Positions 1,936 through 13,125 of a DNA stretch of 45,881 nucleotides are shown piece after piece. The notes beneath the pieces were generated by a model. The model was given only the letters and a program-made list of their open reading frames with translations. It ran no database searches and was not told the origin of the DNA. The position numbers were made by a program, and so were the translations under genes. The DNA comes from Minisyncoccota bacterium. GTDB lineage: Bacteria > Patescibacteriota > Minisyncoccia > Phycocordibacterales > UBA9973. Every line of letters starts with the position of its first letter. Positions within the stretch are counted from its first letter, which is position 1. The stretch covers positions 1-45,881 of the forward strand of contig JAGOPQ010000004.1 of the NCBI GenBank assembly GCA_017991915.1, read 5' to 3'.

Positions 1936-3636
1936 ATGGCTACATTTGACGAGGAAAAACAAAACAAACAACTAGAAGATTTGCGCAAATTGGAAGAAGA
2001 GCAACTAGTTGCTGTCTTGGCTGAATCAAAATACGGACTTCCTTATATTGATTTGTATCGTTTCCCTATTGATAACGAAGCGCTAAGATTGATGACTGAA
2101 GCTGAAGCCAAGGAAATGAATGTGGCGCCTTTTAAACTAAATGGAAAAAATATTTTGATCGCCGTTCGAACTCCTGCTCCACAAATTTTAAGCAAGTTGA
2201 CCGAAATGGCGGAAAGAAAAAGTTTGAGTCCAGTTTTTTATATGGCCTCTACTGCAAGTTTGCATAAAGTTTGGGATAGATATCAAGAATTATCTATGGC
2301 CGAAAGCTCCCAAGTGGGTGGTTTGGATATTTCTTTGGATGTTTTGAGAGAAACTGCGAAAAACATCCACAAAATGCAGGACATCAATAAAATAATCACT
2401 GAAACTTTGGCCGGAAATCAAATTCATAGAATTTCTCGCCTTCTGGAAATCATTCTAGCTGGAGCTATCGCCATCAAGGCTTCCGACATACACATCGAGC
2501 CAGAAAAAGACCGTGGTAGATTACGCCTGCGCCTAGATGGTATCTTGCAAGATGTTAGTTTTTTTGGTTCTGATATTTACAGACTTCTAAACTCTCGCAT
2601 CAAGCTTCTCTCTGGCATGAAGCTAACCTCTAGCATCACCCAAGATGGGCGCTTCAATATCACTGAAGGCGACGAAGAGATAAGTATTCGTACCTCGCTG
2701 ATTCCTGGATCATATGGTGAGTCTATTGTTATGAGAATCTTGGATCCAAAATCTCTCCAAGTAAACTTTGAGGAATTGGGCATTGAACCACACTTACTAG
2801 CGGTGGTGGAAGAAGAAATCAAAAAACCAAATGGACTGATTTTGGTTACTGGACCGACTGGTTCTGGAAAAACCACGACCCTGTATGCATTTTTGAGAAA
2901 AATTTATTCTACTGAGATAAACATGATTACTATCGAAGACCCAGTAGAATACCACCTAAAAGGCATCACTCAAACCCAAGTAAGTACCAAGGAGGGTGGC
3001 TATGATTTCCCGGGCGGACTGCGATCAGCACTACGCCAAGATCCAGATGTGATCATGGTGGGAGAAATTCGTGACAGTGAGACTGCCCAAACAGCAGTCC
3101 AGTCTGCGCTCACTGGACACATGGTGTTCTCAACCCTCCACACCAACAACGCCGCAGGAGTCATCCCCCGCTTGATTGACCTGGGAGTAAATCCAAAAAT
3201 TATGGTCTCAGCTCTTTCTTTATCTATGGCCCAGAGATTGGTTCGAAAGCTTTGTAAAGAATGCAAGCGCGCAGTGCCTCCAACTGAAGCGGAAACCAAA
3301 ATGATAGATAGTATCTTGAATGGAATGAAAGAAGAAGGCAAAGATCTGTCATTGCACCAAATAAAAGAAGGCGCATCATTTAATCTTTTTTTGCCGGTTG
3401 GTTGCGATTTGTGCAATAATACCGGCTATAGTGGTAGAATAGGTATCTTCGAAGCCATCAAAACTGATGAGTCGATAGAAAAAATTATTCCGGACAATCC
3501 AAGTGAGCGTGAAATCAAAAGAGTGGCCAAAGGACAGGGGCTACTCTCCATGCGACAGGATGGTATTATAAAAATAATTAGCGGAGTTACTTCACTGGAA
3601 GAGGTGGCAAGCGTAGTAGACTTAAACGAAGAATAG
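1936..3636 (+). CDS. Type II/IV secretion (GspE/PilB/PulE) ATPase
   Basis: Hexameric cytoplasmic ATPase that powers assembly of type IV pili or type II secretion pseudopili. At 566 residues it is the usual length. The N-terminal region of about 140 residues is MshEN-like. It is followed by the N2 domain (ASDIHIEPEK), Walker A GPTGSGKTTT at about 306, and the Walker B/Asp-box region MVGEIRDSETAQTA at about 372. A His-box follows (STLHTNNAAG). Four cysteines, CKEC at about 440 and CDLC at about 491, form the zinc site typical of PilB/GspE. The LOG-family gene starts 1 base after its stop, so the two are probably cotranscribed. No other pilus-assembly genes (pilC, pilin, pilD) are in the window, so the partner system lies elsewhere. 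Confidence 0.93.
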   Translation: MATFDEEKQNKQLEDLRKLEEEQLVAVLAESKYGLPYIDLYRFPIDNEALRLMTEAEAKEMNVAPFKLNGKNILIAVRTPAPQILSKLTEMAERKSLSPVFYMASTASLHKVWDRYQELSMAESSQVGGLDISLDVLRETAKNIHKMQDINKIITETLAGNQIHRISRLLEIILAGAIAIKASDIHIEPEKDRGRLRLRLDGILQDVSFFGSDIYRLLNSRIKLLSGMKLTSSITQDGRFNITEGDEEISIRTSLIPGSYGESIVMRILDPKSLQVNFEELGIEPHLLAVVEEEIKKPNGLILVTGPTGSGKTTTLYAFLRKIYSTEINMITIEDPVEYHLKGITQTQVSTKEGGYDFPGGLRSALRQDPDVIMVGEIRDSETAQTAVQSALTGHMVFSTLHTNNAAGVIPRLIDLGVNPKIMVSALSLSMAQRLVRKLCKECKRAVPPTEAETKMIDSILNGMKEEGKDLSLHQIKEGASFNLFLPVGCDLCNNTGYSGRIGIFEAIKTDESIEKIIPDNPSEREIKRVAKGQGLLSMRQDGIIKIISGVTSLEEVASVVDLNEE

Positions 3637-3637
3637 A

Positions 3638-4306
3638 ATGACAAAACAAACCGACAAACAATTTGATAATTTTCAAAAGAAAGACCAGAATCACTTTAAA
3701 GTAGTTATTTTCGGAAGCTCTAGAATAAAAAAGAACGATTCAGTGTACAAAAAAGTTGAGCACTTGGCTATGATGTTGGGTGAAGCTGGTATAGATGTAG
3801 TCACTGGTGGTGGCCCGGGTCTGATGGAAGCCGCGAACGCTGGACATGAGCGAGGTGCAAAAAACACCAAAGTTAGATCACACTCCATAGGTATAGGAGT
3901 AAAGCTACTCTGGAGACAGAGGTTTAACAATGCTGTAGAATACAAAAAGGAATTCAATAACTTTTCTCAAAGACTAGATGAATTCATGTTGCTCTCTGAT
4001 GCTATAGTGGTGGCTCCAGGAGGACTAGGAACCATGTTGGAATTGTTTTACGCTTGGCAACTGGTACAAGTACACCATATTTGTGACGTGCCAATCATAT
4101 TACTTGGAGACAAGTGGGATGGACTACTAAACTGGATAAAACAAAATCCATTGCATAAAAAATATTTAGATGAAACTGACTACGAGATTGTTTACCACGT
4201 TCAAACTGCGAAACAAGCCGCAAAAATCATTGAAGAAAGATACAATCATGTAAAAGCAGGGGGTAAAAATTTCTGTTTAAACTACAAAAAATATAAAATC
4301 AAATAG
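3638..4306 (+). CDS. LOG-family (TIGR00730-like) putative nucleotide phosphoribohydrolase
   Basis: A 222-residue Rossmann-fold protein of the LOG family. Members hydrolyse the N-glycosidic bond of nucleoside 5'-monophosphates, and plant and actinobacterial relatives release cytokinins. The signature GGGPGLMEAA is at about 57 and PGGLGTMLE at about 127, the usual catalytic/phosphate site. The start follows the stop of the ATPase gene by 1 base, suggesting translational coupling. The Lys-rich C-terminal tail is atypical. The substrate is not determinable from sequence. Confidence 0.85.
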   Translation: MTKQTDKQFDNFQKKDQNHFKVVIFGSSRIKKNDSVYKKVEHLAMMLGEAGIDVVTGGGPGLMEAANAGHERGAKNTKVRSHSIGIGVKLLWRQRFNNAVEYKKEFNNFSQRLDEFMLLSDAIVVAPGGLGTMLELFYAWQLVQVHHICDVPIILLGDKWDGLLNWIKQNPLHKKYLDETDYEIVYHVQTAKQAAKIIEERYNHVKAGGKNFCLNYKKYKIK

Positions 4307-4320
4307 ATAAAAGAAGAAAC

Positions 4321-4471
4321 AAAAAAAACACTAATCTCTAAACAATCCTTTTAAAGATAAACCTTAAAAGTAACAAATTCTTGAAGGATAGCCCCAGTGA
4401 ATTAATAAAAATTACCAGAACGTCCTACGCAAACTTGTATAACCGATGGCTGATTGATTAGAGATTAGTGT
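4321..4471 (-). ncRNA. ssrS: 6S RNA-like structured RNA
   Basis: In the otherwise empty 4307-4622 gap the minus strand can fold into one long rod. A 20-bp closing stem with one T-T mismatch pairs 4471-4452 with 4347-4328. A large bubble follows, whose 3' side holds a small 7-bp hairpin (4370-4364 with 4354-4348). A distal helix pairs 4437-4423 with 4388-4374 and carries small internal loops. A run of eight T follows the closing stem (4328-4321), as in an intrinsic terminator. A TATTAA -10-like box at 4482-4477 would place the start at about 4470. A closing stem, a central bubble with a 3' hairpin and a terminal stem is the architecture of 6S RNA, which sequesters RNA polymerase. The identity is inferred from structure only. 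Confidence 0.6.
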
Positions 4472-4545
4472 CTTCTTTAATAATCTCGCTCCCCTACTTC
4501 AAATAACTTACTTTTGAATTATACTATTATCTCAAGCTCACTCAG

Positions 4546-4554: not shown

Positions 4555-4622
4555 GTGTATAGCTATGTTGATACTGTGTTGATAAAAGTATTACTCTACT
4601 AGTATAGCATATAGTCAAATCA

Positions 4623-5678
4623 ATGTCAAGCAAAATACCAAACGAAATAGATACCGCAAGGGTCCCTGGGGATGAGGATTCCAAAGAAGAAATTAAAGAT
4701 TCTTCCTTAGATCAGGCCCTGCGCCCAAGAGCTTGGGAGGACTATATCGGCCAAAAACATATAAAAGACAACCTAAAAATCCTTTTGGGGGCGGCCGAAG
4801 AGCGTGGGCACATCCCCGAACACATCCTATTTTATGGCCCCCCAGGACTGGGCAAAACCACCCTAGCCCACCTCATAGCCAAAGAAACTGGCCGGCAAAT
4901 GAAGGTTACTTCTGGTCCAGCCATAGAGAAAGTTGGTGACTTGGCCTCTATTTTGACCAACATGGCCCCGGGAGACATTCTTTTTATAGATGAAATCCAC
5001 AGACTTAATAAAATGGTGGAAGAAATACTCTACCCAGCCATGGAATCTGGAGTTTTGGATATTATTATCGGCAAGGGCCCGGGAGCGAGAACCATTCAGC
5101 TCGATCTCCCCTCTTTCACCTTGATTGCCGCGACTACTCGTGTGGCACTTGTATCTTCTCCTCTACGCTCACGTTTCTCTGGTGGAGTTTTTCGTTTGGA
5201 ATTTTATTCCAACAAAGAAATTGAAGAAATTGTCAGACGCTCAAGTAAATTATTAAAAACCGAATTGGATTCTGGGGCATTAGAAGAAATTGCTCAGCGT
5301 AGTAGATTCACTCCTAGAACCGCCAACTACTTTTTGAAACGTTGCCGAGATTTTGCTCAAGTAACTAAAAGAATCTTGAATAAAGAAACAGTTAAGGACG
5401 CTTTAGAGATGCTTTCGGTGGATGAAGTAGGTCTGAATATTTCCGACAGAAGATTCCTAGAAACATTGATGACTAAATTTAACGGCGGACCAGTGGGTTT
5501 GAAAACTATTTCTGCTGCTCTCTCAGAAGAAGAAGCTACCCTAGAAGAAGTGATAGAGCCATACTTGATCCAGCTTGGTTTCTTGGAACGCACTGCTCGA
5601 GGACGAGTAGCTACAGAAAAAGCTTATGCGCACATGGGTGTACCTGTGCCGGCCAATATACAAAGTAAACTACTATGA
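4623..5678 (+). CDS. ruvB: Holliday junction branch migration helicase RuvB
   Basis: AAA+ motor that drives branch migration of Holliday junctions with RuvA. At 351 residues it has an extra hydrophilic N-terminus of about 25 residues before the family core (LRPRAWEDYIGQ). Walker A GPPGLGKTT is at about 72, Walker B ILFIDEIHR at about 120, and the sensor 1/arginine-finger segment AATTR...SPLRSRF follows. The C-terminal winged helix contains GLKTISAALSEE and a conserved ARGRVAT. The TGA stop overlaps the ruvC ATG (ATGA), so the two genes are translationally coupled. ruvA is not in the window. Confidence 0.97.
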   Translation: MSSKIPNEIDTARVPGDEDSKEEIKDSSLDQALRPRAWEDYIGQKHIKDNLKILLGAAEERGHIPEHILFYGPPGLGKTTLAHLIAKETGRQMKVTSGPAIEKVGDLASILTNMAPGDILFIDEIHRLNKMVEEILYPAMESGVLDIIIGKGPGARTIQLDLPSFTLIAATTRVALVSSPLRSRFSGGVFRLEFYSNKEIEEIVRRSSKLLKTELDSGALEEIAQRSRFTPRTANYFLKRCRDFAQVTKRILNKETVKDALEMLSVDEVGLNISDRRFLETLMTKFNGGPVGLKTISAALSEEEATLEEVIEPYLIQLGFLERTARGRVATEKAYAHMGVPVPANIQSKLL

Positions 5679-11668: not shown

Positions 11669-13012
11669 CTATTTAAACATAACTCGTATCTGTTCTATCT
11701 CTTGTAATAACTGCGGATCATCTTTTATATCACCTTTAATTTTTAAATAAGAGTGAATAACAGTGGTGTGATCTTTTCCGCCAAGTTTTTGTCCGATTAG
11801 TGGGTATGAAACACTAAAGTCTTCTCGGAGTAAGTACATAACCACTTGCCTAGCTTTCACAATTTCTTTTCGGCGAGTTTTTTCGTAAATAGATGTTTCT
11901 TCTAGGTTGTAATAATCACTTACCGTCTTTACTACATCTTTTATAGCTACATTCTTTTTTGGTTTAATGCTGTTTTTGAGCGCATTCTTTACCTCTAAGA
12001 GTGTTAAAGGCCTATTTTTAAGGCGATATTGGCAAACTATAGTGTTTAGGCTTCCCTCTAATTCTCGAACATTGCCCTGAATAACTCCAGCTACGTAGTC
12101 CATTATTTCTGGATCTAGCTCAATGTTTAGTTCTTGAAGTTTAACCTTTAAAATAGCTATACGAGATTCATACTCAGGTTCAGTGATGTCTACTATCATT
12201 CCCGCAGCAAAACGTGACTTCAGGCGGTCAGCGAGCTCTGGGATGTGGTTTGGATGTTTGTCTGAAGAAAAAATAATTTGTTTATTGTTCTCATGGAAAG
12301 TATTGAATGTGTGAAAGAGTTCTTCTTGAATTTTTTCCATCTTTCCAATGAACTGAATATCATCAATGATTAATAAATCATACTTACGATACTTTTCTTT
12401 GAAAGAATTTGCTTTGTTTGATTGTAGAGAGTTTATAAAATCAGTAGCAAACTTTTCTAAAGTCATATAGTGAACCTTTTTGTTTGGGTATTTTTCCTTT
12501 ATAGAGTTTCCAACCGCTTGGATCAAGTGGGTCTTCCCTAGTCCAGTAGGTCCATAGATGAAAAACGGGTTGTATTTAGTTCCAGGAGAATCAATTATAG
12601 CTTGTGAAGCTGCATAAGCTAGTTCATTGAAGCCTCCAACAATAAAAGAATCAAAGCGATAGCGTGAATTCAGGTTGTCCTCTGGATTTATGTATAAATC
12701 TTTCAAAGGAAGCTCTTTGTTCATAAAACTTACTGCCTCCCGAGCTATTTCCTGCTTACCCGGCTCTATTTTAGTGATGGTGTATTCAACTGCGCGCATG
12801 TTTTCATATACATCAGCTATGGTTTTGGTGATAAGCTTATGGTATTTGTTCTTTAACCAGTCCCTCACAAACTCATTTGGCACCCCCACATATATAACCC
12901 CCATATCCTCTTTTAAAATAGAGGTATTTTTAAACCAAGTACTAAAATTAGCCTTAGACACATCTCCCTCTATTTCAGCCAAGCAGCTTTCCCAAAGTTG
13001 TTTTGTATCCAT
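11669..13012 (-). CDS. dnaA: Chromosomal replication initiator DnaA
   Basis: AAA+ initiator that binds DnaA boxes and unwinds the origin, about 447 residues. Domain I (LWESCLAEIEGDVSKANFSTWF) is followed by a short linker. The AAA+ core starts at NSRYRFDSFIVG, with Walker A GPTGLGKTHL, Walker B LLIIDDIQF, and sensor/arginine residues in ADRLKSRFAAG. The C-terminal helix-turn-helix carries the box-binding signature GGKDHTTVIHSYLKI. The ATG at 13012 was chosen over upstream in-frame ATGs because a TATAAT box (13025-13020) ends 7 bases before it and the Met-Asp-Thr start suits the family. It is divergent from rpmH. Confidence 0.97.
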   Translation of the reverse strand: MDTKQLWESCLAEIEGDVSKANFSTWFKNTSILKEDMGVIYVGVPNEFVRDWLKNKYHKLITKTIADVYENMRAVEYTITKIEPGKQEIAREAVSFMNKELPLKDLYINPEDNLNSRYRFDSFIVGGFNELAYAASQAIIDSPGTKYNPFFIYGPTGLGKTHLIQAVGNSIKEKYPNKKVHYMTLEKFATDFINSLQSNKANSFKEKYRKYDLLIIDDIQFIGKMEKIQEELFHTFNTFHENNKQIIFSSDKHPNHIPELADRLKSRFAAGMIVDITEPEYESRIAILKVKLQELNIELDPEIMDYVAGVIQGNVRELEGSLNTIVCQYRLKNRPLTLLEVKNALKNSIKPKKNVAIKDVVKTVSDYYNLEETSIYEKTRRKEIVKARQVVMYLLREDFSVSYPLIGQKLGGKDHTTVIHSYLKIKGDIKDDPQLLQEIEQIRVMFK

Positions 13013-13019
13013 TTGTTGC

Positions 13020-13025
13020 ATTATA
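13020..13025 (-). promoter_or_regulatory. -10 box of dnaA
   Basis: TATAAT on the minus strand, 7 bases before the ATG at 13012. A second TATACT at 13037-13032 lies just upstream. The upstream in-frame ATG overlaps the -10 box, so translation from it is unlikely. Confidence 0.6.
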
Positions 13026-13125
13026 CTACCTAGTATAGCTATTAAGAAAATATAAAAACTTATTAACTCTGTTAACAAACTGTTGATAAGTCTACATCAT
13101 AGCATTTATGTAACCAATATCGTCT

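Follow-up and report, generated by a model that had tools for sequence, protein, structure and literature searches.

A structured RNA encoded between ruvB and pilB founds a new family in a Parcubacteria class and may act like 6S RNA

Introduction

Among small bacterial RNAs, 6S RNA (RF00013) binds the housekeeping RNA polymerase holoenzyme, supports pRNA synthesis and has a central bubble, largely single-stranded, that resembles an open promoter. The open bubble is its defining feature (PMC9130861, PMC4064990). A 6S-shaped RNA of about 300 nt, Ms1, has been described in Actinobacteria, a lineage without detected 6S, where it was found partly via its conserved gene neighbours and has core RNA polymerase without sigma as its partner (PMC9130861). 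For Parcubacteria, loss of the signal recognition particle (SRP) has been reported (Nelson and Stegen 2015, PMC4508563). The Patescibacteria, whose genomes are very small, make up a large and barely cultured share of bacterial diversity, and our search of openly accessible journal papers returned none that connects them with 6S RNA or with any conserved small RNA.

Here we analysed a stretch of 45,881 nucleotides from a Minisyncoccota bacterium (contig JAGOPQ010000004.1, hereafter the window), part of a 567-kb draft genome (G000), in which an earlier note had proposed a minus-strand 6S-like RNA at 4321-4471. Like 6S RNA, the RNA found there stands alone, measures about 150-200 nt, occurs lineage-wide in single copy behind a strong promoter, and combines a long closing stem with a distal arm and a small 3' hairpin. 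Unlike 6S RNA, it has a paired four-way junction where 6S has an open bubble, gives no covariance-model match, carries no UGUUCG/CGGCA-type closing-stem motif and has other gene neighbours. Ms1 provides a precedent for a 6S-shaped RNA where 6S is undetected, but no sequence relation to it was seen, and the Parcubacteria RNA is shorter. With bacterial SRP RNA (RF00169) the RNA shares ubiquity, an apparent housekeeping character and a similar size class; it differs in having no covariance match and no GNRA-capped helix 8 motif, and in belonging to an order without SRP GTPases.

Results and discussion

Fold and parts of the RNA element

Folding the minus strand of 4311-4481 gave -59.2 kcal/mol, compared with a mean of -27.7 for dinucleotide shuffles (n=200), none of which folded as well (0/200; z -8.0). 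The closing stem, distal helix, small 3' hairpin and run of eight T previously proposed for this strand are all present. Of the proposed central bubble, the 3' hairpin stands and the openness does not: a second, 5' hairpin (P2) had been overlooked, and the centre of the RNA is a four-way junction of P1-P4 with few bases left unpaired. The element comprises the following parts, with evidence given in brackets.

4320..4479, minus strand: structured core of the RNA, about 160 nt from the closing stem to the U run (fold z-score and homologues)
4452..4479, minus strand: P1 closing stem, 5' arm, containing the highly conserved AAUCUCUAAgCAAU (predicted helices; covariation)
4441..4451, minus strand: P2, small 5' hairpin AGCC-AUC-GGUU (order-wide covariation; mutual information)
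4373..4438, minus strand: P3 distal arm, with the conserved internal-loop motif GGAC..UGG / CUGG..UAUCC (covariation; mutual information)
4348..4370, minus strand: P4, 3' hairpin, stacked on P1 (covariation)
4320..4347, minus strand: P1 closing stem, 3' arm, AUUGUUUAGAGAUUAGUG plus the U run (covariation; predicted helices)
4321..4328, minus strand: U8 run, an intrinsic-terminator-like 3' end (sequence)

In the window, P1 consists of 27 pairs (4479-4452 with 4347-4320), the outermost of which draw their partners from the U run itself, and P2 of 4 pairs (4451-4448 with 4444-4441). Folded as single sequences, 129 of 148 members took this four-way shape, and some members without P2 folded into a simple two-arm shape. 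The most strongly conserved parts are the interior of the P1 duplex and the internal loop of P3, and the P4 loop is conserved as well. Near 4457 the minus strand of the window copy reads CUCUAAUCAAUC, a U replacing the G of nearly all relatives (CUCUAAGCAAUC), which makes a U-U mismatch within P1.

Compensatory changes and coding strand

In a MAFFT alignment of homologues (A5), at least one compensatory change was identified for each of 52 of the 57 pairs, and double-change cells numbered 459 against 144 in shuffles. Of the cells, 89.8% were paired, compared with 76% after shuffling and 40-51% when partners were slid by 1-3 columns. Support extended over the individual helices, with covariation in 6/6 pairs of P2 across the order and double changes in 9/9 pairs of P4 and 24/25 pairs of P1, the last of these answering positively the check on the closing stem in relatives that had been proposed with the 6S-like reading. 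From the same alignment, RNAalifold independently recovered P1 and P4 together with the inner portion of P3. When 100 sequences in an alignment fitted to the model were ranked by mutual information, the top 25 pairs lay with few exceptions in P1-P4, and no clear pseudoknot or tertiary covariation emerged beyond the helices. The inner part of P1 (CUCUAAGCAA/UUGCUUAGAG) is seemingly invariant, yet it carries compensated changes in a few lineages, as exemplified by L115 and L139, where it reads UCUAGACAA/UUGUCUAGA.

G-U cells numbered 407 against 66 A-C cells, an excess which indicates that the RNA is the minus strand; the pairing is shown to be specific to this strand. A reading without any RNA, with the region being mobile or palindromic DNA or the fold arising by chance, draws on the long inverted repeat and on the complementary strand also scoring with the model. 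It is already contradicted by the compensatory changes, the G-U excess, a promoter on one strand, and the occurrence of the element as a single copy in a single conserved place, and we give it practically no chance of being correct. The earlier claim of a minus-strand small RNA thereby receives strong support from sequence evidence, namely compensation in these pairs, a promoter of its own, and conservation, and we consider it close to certain on these comparative grounds that 4479-4320 of the minus strand constitutes an RNA gene.

Distribution across the class

BLASTn searches (E<1e-10) located the RNA in 72/79 sampled genus genomes and in much of the family. Covariance models extended this range: R1 (30 sequences) identified it in 153/197 order genomes from about 80 families, R2 (56 order members) in 89/314 class genomes, and the class-wide R3, built from a trimmed alignment, in 25/32 class genomes within a phylum sample. 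Outside the class, R3 returned four matches (E 0.05-0.07) without ruvB/pilB synteny, and the weak R1/R3 matches in other classes (L072, L073, L246-L249) were rejected as chance because this synteny was missing. When 84,980 species genomes were scanned for a pattern of the RNA motif, there were at least 80 matches, and among those listed the named ones all belonged to Parcubacteria/Patescibacteria lineages, the named records bearing the motif being Candidatus Nomurabacteria and related Parcubacteria/Paceibacterota. The lineages that carry the RNA are of Paceibacteria type (Nomura-, Taylor-, Zambryski-, Adler- and Kaiserbacteria), with essentially one copy per genome.

Rfam searches of the whole window identified four tRNAs only, and the RNA region gave no credible match even at E<=10. 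Sequence evidence establishes that the Parcubacteria class has a new family of structured RNA, with no match to an Rfam family. A near-universal RNA of the lineage has consequently been missed by Rfam-based annotation; having neither an Rfam family nor a paper that we could find, it merits an Rfam entry, and the covariance model is ready for use in annotation.

Gene neighbourhood

The position of the RNA relative to flanking genes is strongly conserved, as summarized by the following neighbours in the window.

4623..5678, plus strand: ruvB, the divergent neighbour upstream of the RNA (144/148 homologous loci)
3638..4306, plus strand: LOG-family gene between pilB and the RNA (also in two other relatives examined)
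1936..3636, plus strand: pilB-type ATPase gene, the convergent neighbour downstream of the RNA (138/148 homologous loci)

Among the R3 class-level matches, examination of the flanks placed pilB in 25/25 and ruvB in 23/25. Such a locked gene order, with ruvB divergent and pilB convergent, would be expected of an element acting in cis within the ruvB-pilB region, responsible for divergent-promoter control of ruvB or for antisense or termination control of pilB. We nevertheless regard this reading as very improbable, given that spacing between the RNA and pilB varies from overlap to more than 1 kb, LOG and other genes having been inserted there (LOG itself at three loci only), that the link to pilB is already broken at locus L112, and that the architecture is too elaborate and too conserved for a terminator alone. 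Two further observations oppose it, namely a separate promoter for the RNA and the lack of a downstream gene on the RNA strand. A riboswitch or leader was likewise rejected, as it is the 3' end of the convergent gene that sits downstream on the RNA strand.

Promoters and predicted transcript

Upstream of the RNA, three sequence features were identified in the window.

4601..4629, minus strand: strong sigma70-type promoter, TTGACA-17-TGC.TATACT (sequence; equivalents upstream of relatives)
4566..4585, minus strand: DnaA-box-like repeats TTATCAACA / TATCAACA between both promoter boxes, genus-conserved (putative function)
4518..4526, minus strand: second -10-like box TAGTATAAT near the RNA, genus-conserved (putative promoter)

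An extended -10 promoter scoring at least 11/13 was found upstream of 100% of members in the genus, 90% in the family, 73% in the order and 85% in the class; among shuffles the figure was about 1%, and among downstream regions 0-4%. A fair proportion of class members have 3-12 nt between the end of the -10 box and the stem, which would place the start of the RNA at the closing stem. The Nomurabacteria genus instead has a leader of 73-130 nt with the second conserved -10-like box and the DnaA-box-like repeats. Owing to the promoters at 4629-4601 and about 4526-4518, the transcript of the window probably extends further 5' than 4321-4471, to a length of about 190 or 275 nt. At the other end, 27/28 genus members have a U run after the 3' arm, vs 15/67 in the order. 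Transcription of the RNA is what these promoter and U-run signals would predict. The repeats between the RNA promoter boxes (TTATCAACA, TATCAACA and TATCCACATTATAGCA) recur genus-wide with about 11-nt spacing; the dnaA gene itself (window 11669-13078) lies about 7 kb from the RNA locus.

A coding role was rejected, as no reading frame is conserved and a frame entirely free of stops exists in just 23 of 148 members. Given its own promoter, a conserved fold, and no downstream gene on its strand, the natural reading is that the RNA probably acts in trans as part of a ribonucleoprotein (RNP). That fold, promoter and address have all been kept class-wide suggests that it is likely important to these cells.

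Relationship to 6S RNA

With controls positive, the Rfam 6S model (RF00013) gave no match in the window or in 20 loci of relatives, the outcome of one of the checks suggested with the original proposal. No match exceeded the cut-off in 60 order genomes, where two weak matches (E 0.46 and 0.76) were seen, and the class genomes of the phylum sample contained none at E<=0.01. Elsewhere in the phylum, RF00013 identified canonical 6S in 30/366 genomes, all in other classes and only 4 above the Rfam cut-off, and R3 did not find the class RNA in these sister-class genomes of the phylum sample. The resulting difference (0/32 in the class against 30/334 elsewhere; Fisher p = 0.09) is weak evidence of 6S absence when taken alone, because RF00013 is insensitive in this phylum.

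The canonical 6S RNAs of other Patescibacteria classes (L250-L279) measure about 150-160 nt and share a conserved CCCACCUGG..CCAGG 3' hairpin; 26 of the 30 score under the Rfam gathering threshold, so Rfam under-annotates them. They carry recognizable 6S motifs, for instance GAUGUUCG...CGGCGGCAUC in L251, which resemble those of E. coli 6S.

The class RNA could be a true but extremely diverged 6S homologue whose bubble strands gained the hairpins P2 and P4. It resembles the sister-class 6S in size (about 160-190 nt) and has an identical order of elements (closing stem, distal arm, 3' hairpin). Moreover, the bubble of the sister-class 6S holds a 3' hairpin too, members without P2 take the two-arm shape, and the two RNAs have complementary distributions. 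The 3' bubble hairpin (P4) taken by itself is compatible with 6S. We nonetheless consider such homology unlikely, given that no sequence motif, synteny or covariance model links the two, and that the four-way shape prevails among members. Neither ruvB nor pilB occurs within the 1.5 kb flanks of the 30 RF00013 loci of other classes, and with no shared neighbours, homology argued from gene order was rejected. The 6S identity put forward for this locus is therefore supported in part: the layout of stem, arm and 3' hairpin agrees, and the Rfam match, the open bubble, the motifs and the neighbours are lacking.

SRP RNA and the candidate function

In 25 relatives, no SRP RNA (RF00169) exceeded the cut-off. 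A 100%-complete relative on two contigs, scanned in full, possessed 5S, 16S and 23S rRNA, RNase P RNA, tmRNA and two riboswitches, with neither 6S nor SRP RNA detected by Rfam. SRP GTPases (PF00448) were missing from the order in 31 genomes, with 14/14 controls positive; the single strong match among the 31 came from G014, for which 5% contamination is listed. Since these GTPases are missing and SRP loss is described for Parcubacteria (PMC4508563), the RNA is not SRP RNA, an identity that was also rejected for want of an RF00169 match and, in a pattern search, of a GNRA-capped helix 8 / Ffh motif. RNase P RNA and tmRNA were rejected as identities, both being present elsewhere in the genomes of relatives. 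No RNase P RNA turned up in G000, the draft genome that contains the window, although its congeners have it; an assembly gap is the probable reason.

As no 6S or SRP RNA was detected in the lineage and sister classes have 6S, a 6S-like function is our best guess, and the most economical one because 6S is the ubiquitous RNA slot undetected in the class. We therefore tentatively favour, though short of calling it probable, a trans-acting RNA that founds the new Parcubacteria-class family, is expressed, forms a compact RNP, and exerts 6S-like control of RNA polymerase as a substitute for 6S. Once expressed, the RNA would fold into a compact ribonucleoprotein whose long P1 duplex and junction would bind RNA polymerase; as growth slows, it would sequester RNA polymerase or the housekeeping holoenzyme, and in this way would stand in for canonical 6S RNA in the class. 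This function may apply with a confidence well under that in the RNA gene, another housekeeping role being nearly as likely. The proposal offers a concrete test of transcription control in cells without detectable 6S RNA.

The other role in question, a distinctly possible one, is that of a lineage-specific housekeeping RNP RNA with a task outside RNA-polymerase control (ribosome-, membrane- or RNase-associated, for example), with the P1 duplex, the internal loop of P3 and the loop of P4, all of them conserved, as putative protein-binding sites. The near-universality of the RNA in the class, the four-way junction, the lack of an Rfam match, and the concentration of conserved sequence at those three sites and not in a bubble all point this way. 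Such an RNP would, however, be one without a known partner protein or target, in genomes where the known ubiquitous RNA slots besides 6S and SRP are already filled. A bolder proposal, which we rate as improbable, is that a new universal RNP RNA of the Parcubacteria class appeared, or became widespread, as SRP and 6S were lost, and now performs a core cellular task (co-translational targeting or control of the ribosome or polymerase, for example) through its four-way junction and a protein partner not known outside these bacteria.

Variants among class members

Two variants add to this picture of the family. In L133, one of the few multi-copy cases, two tandem copies (1512-1694 and 1712-1894) have almost identical central domains and differing closing stems, the pair being a recent duplication. 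In many deep-branching class members (L198, L204, L208, L212, L214), the apical loop of P4 is UACCCAU or near to it, and this loop likely makes a protein or RNA contact.
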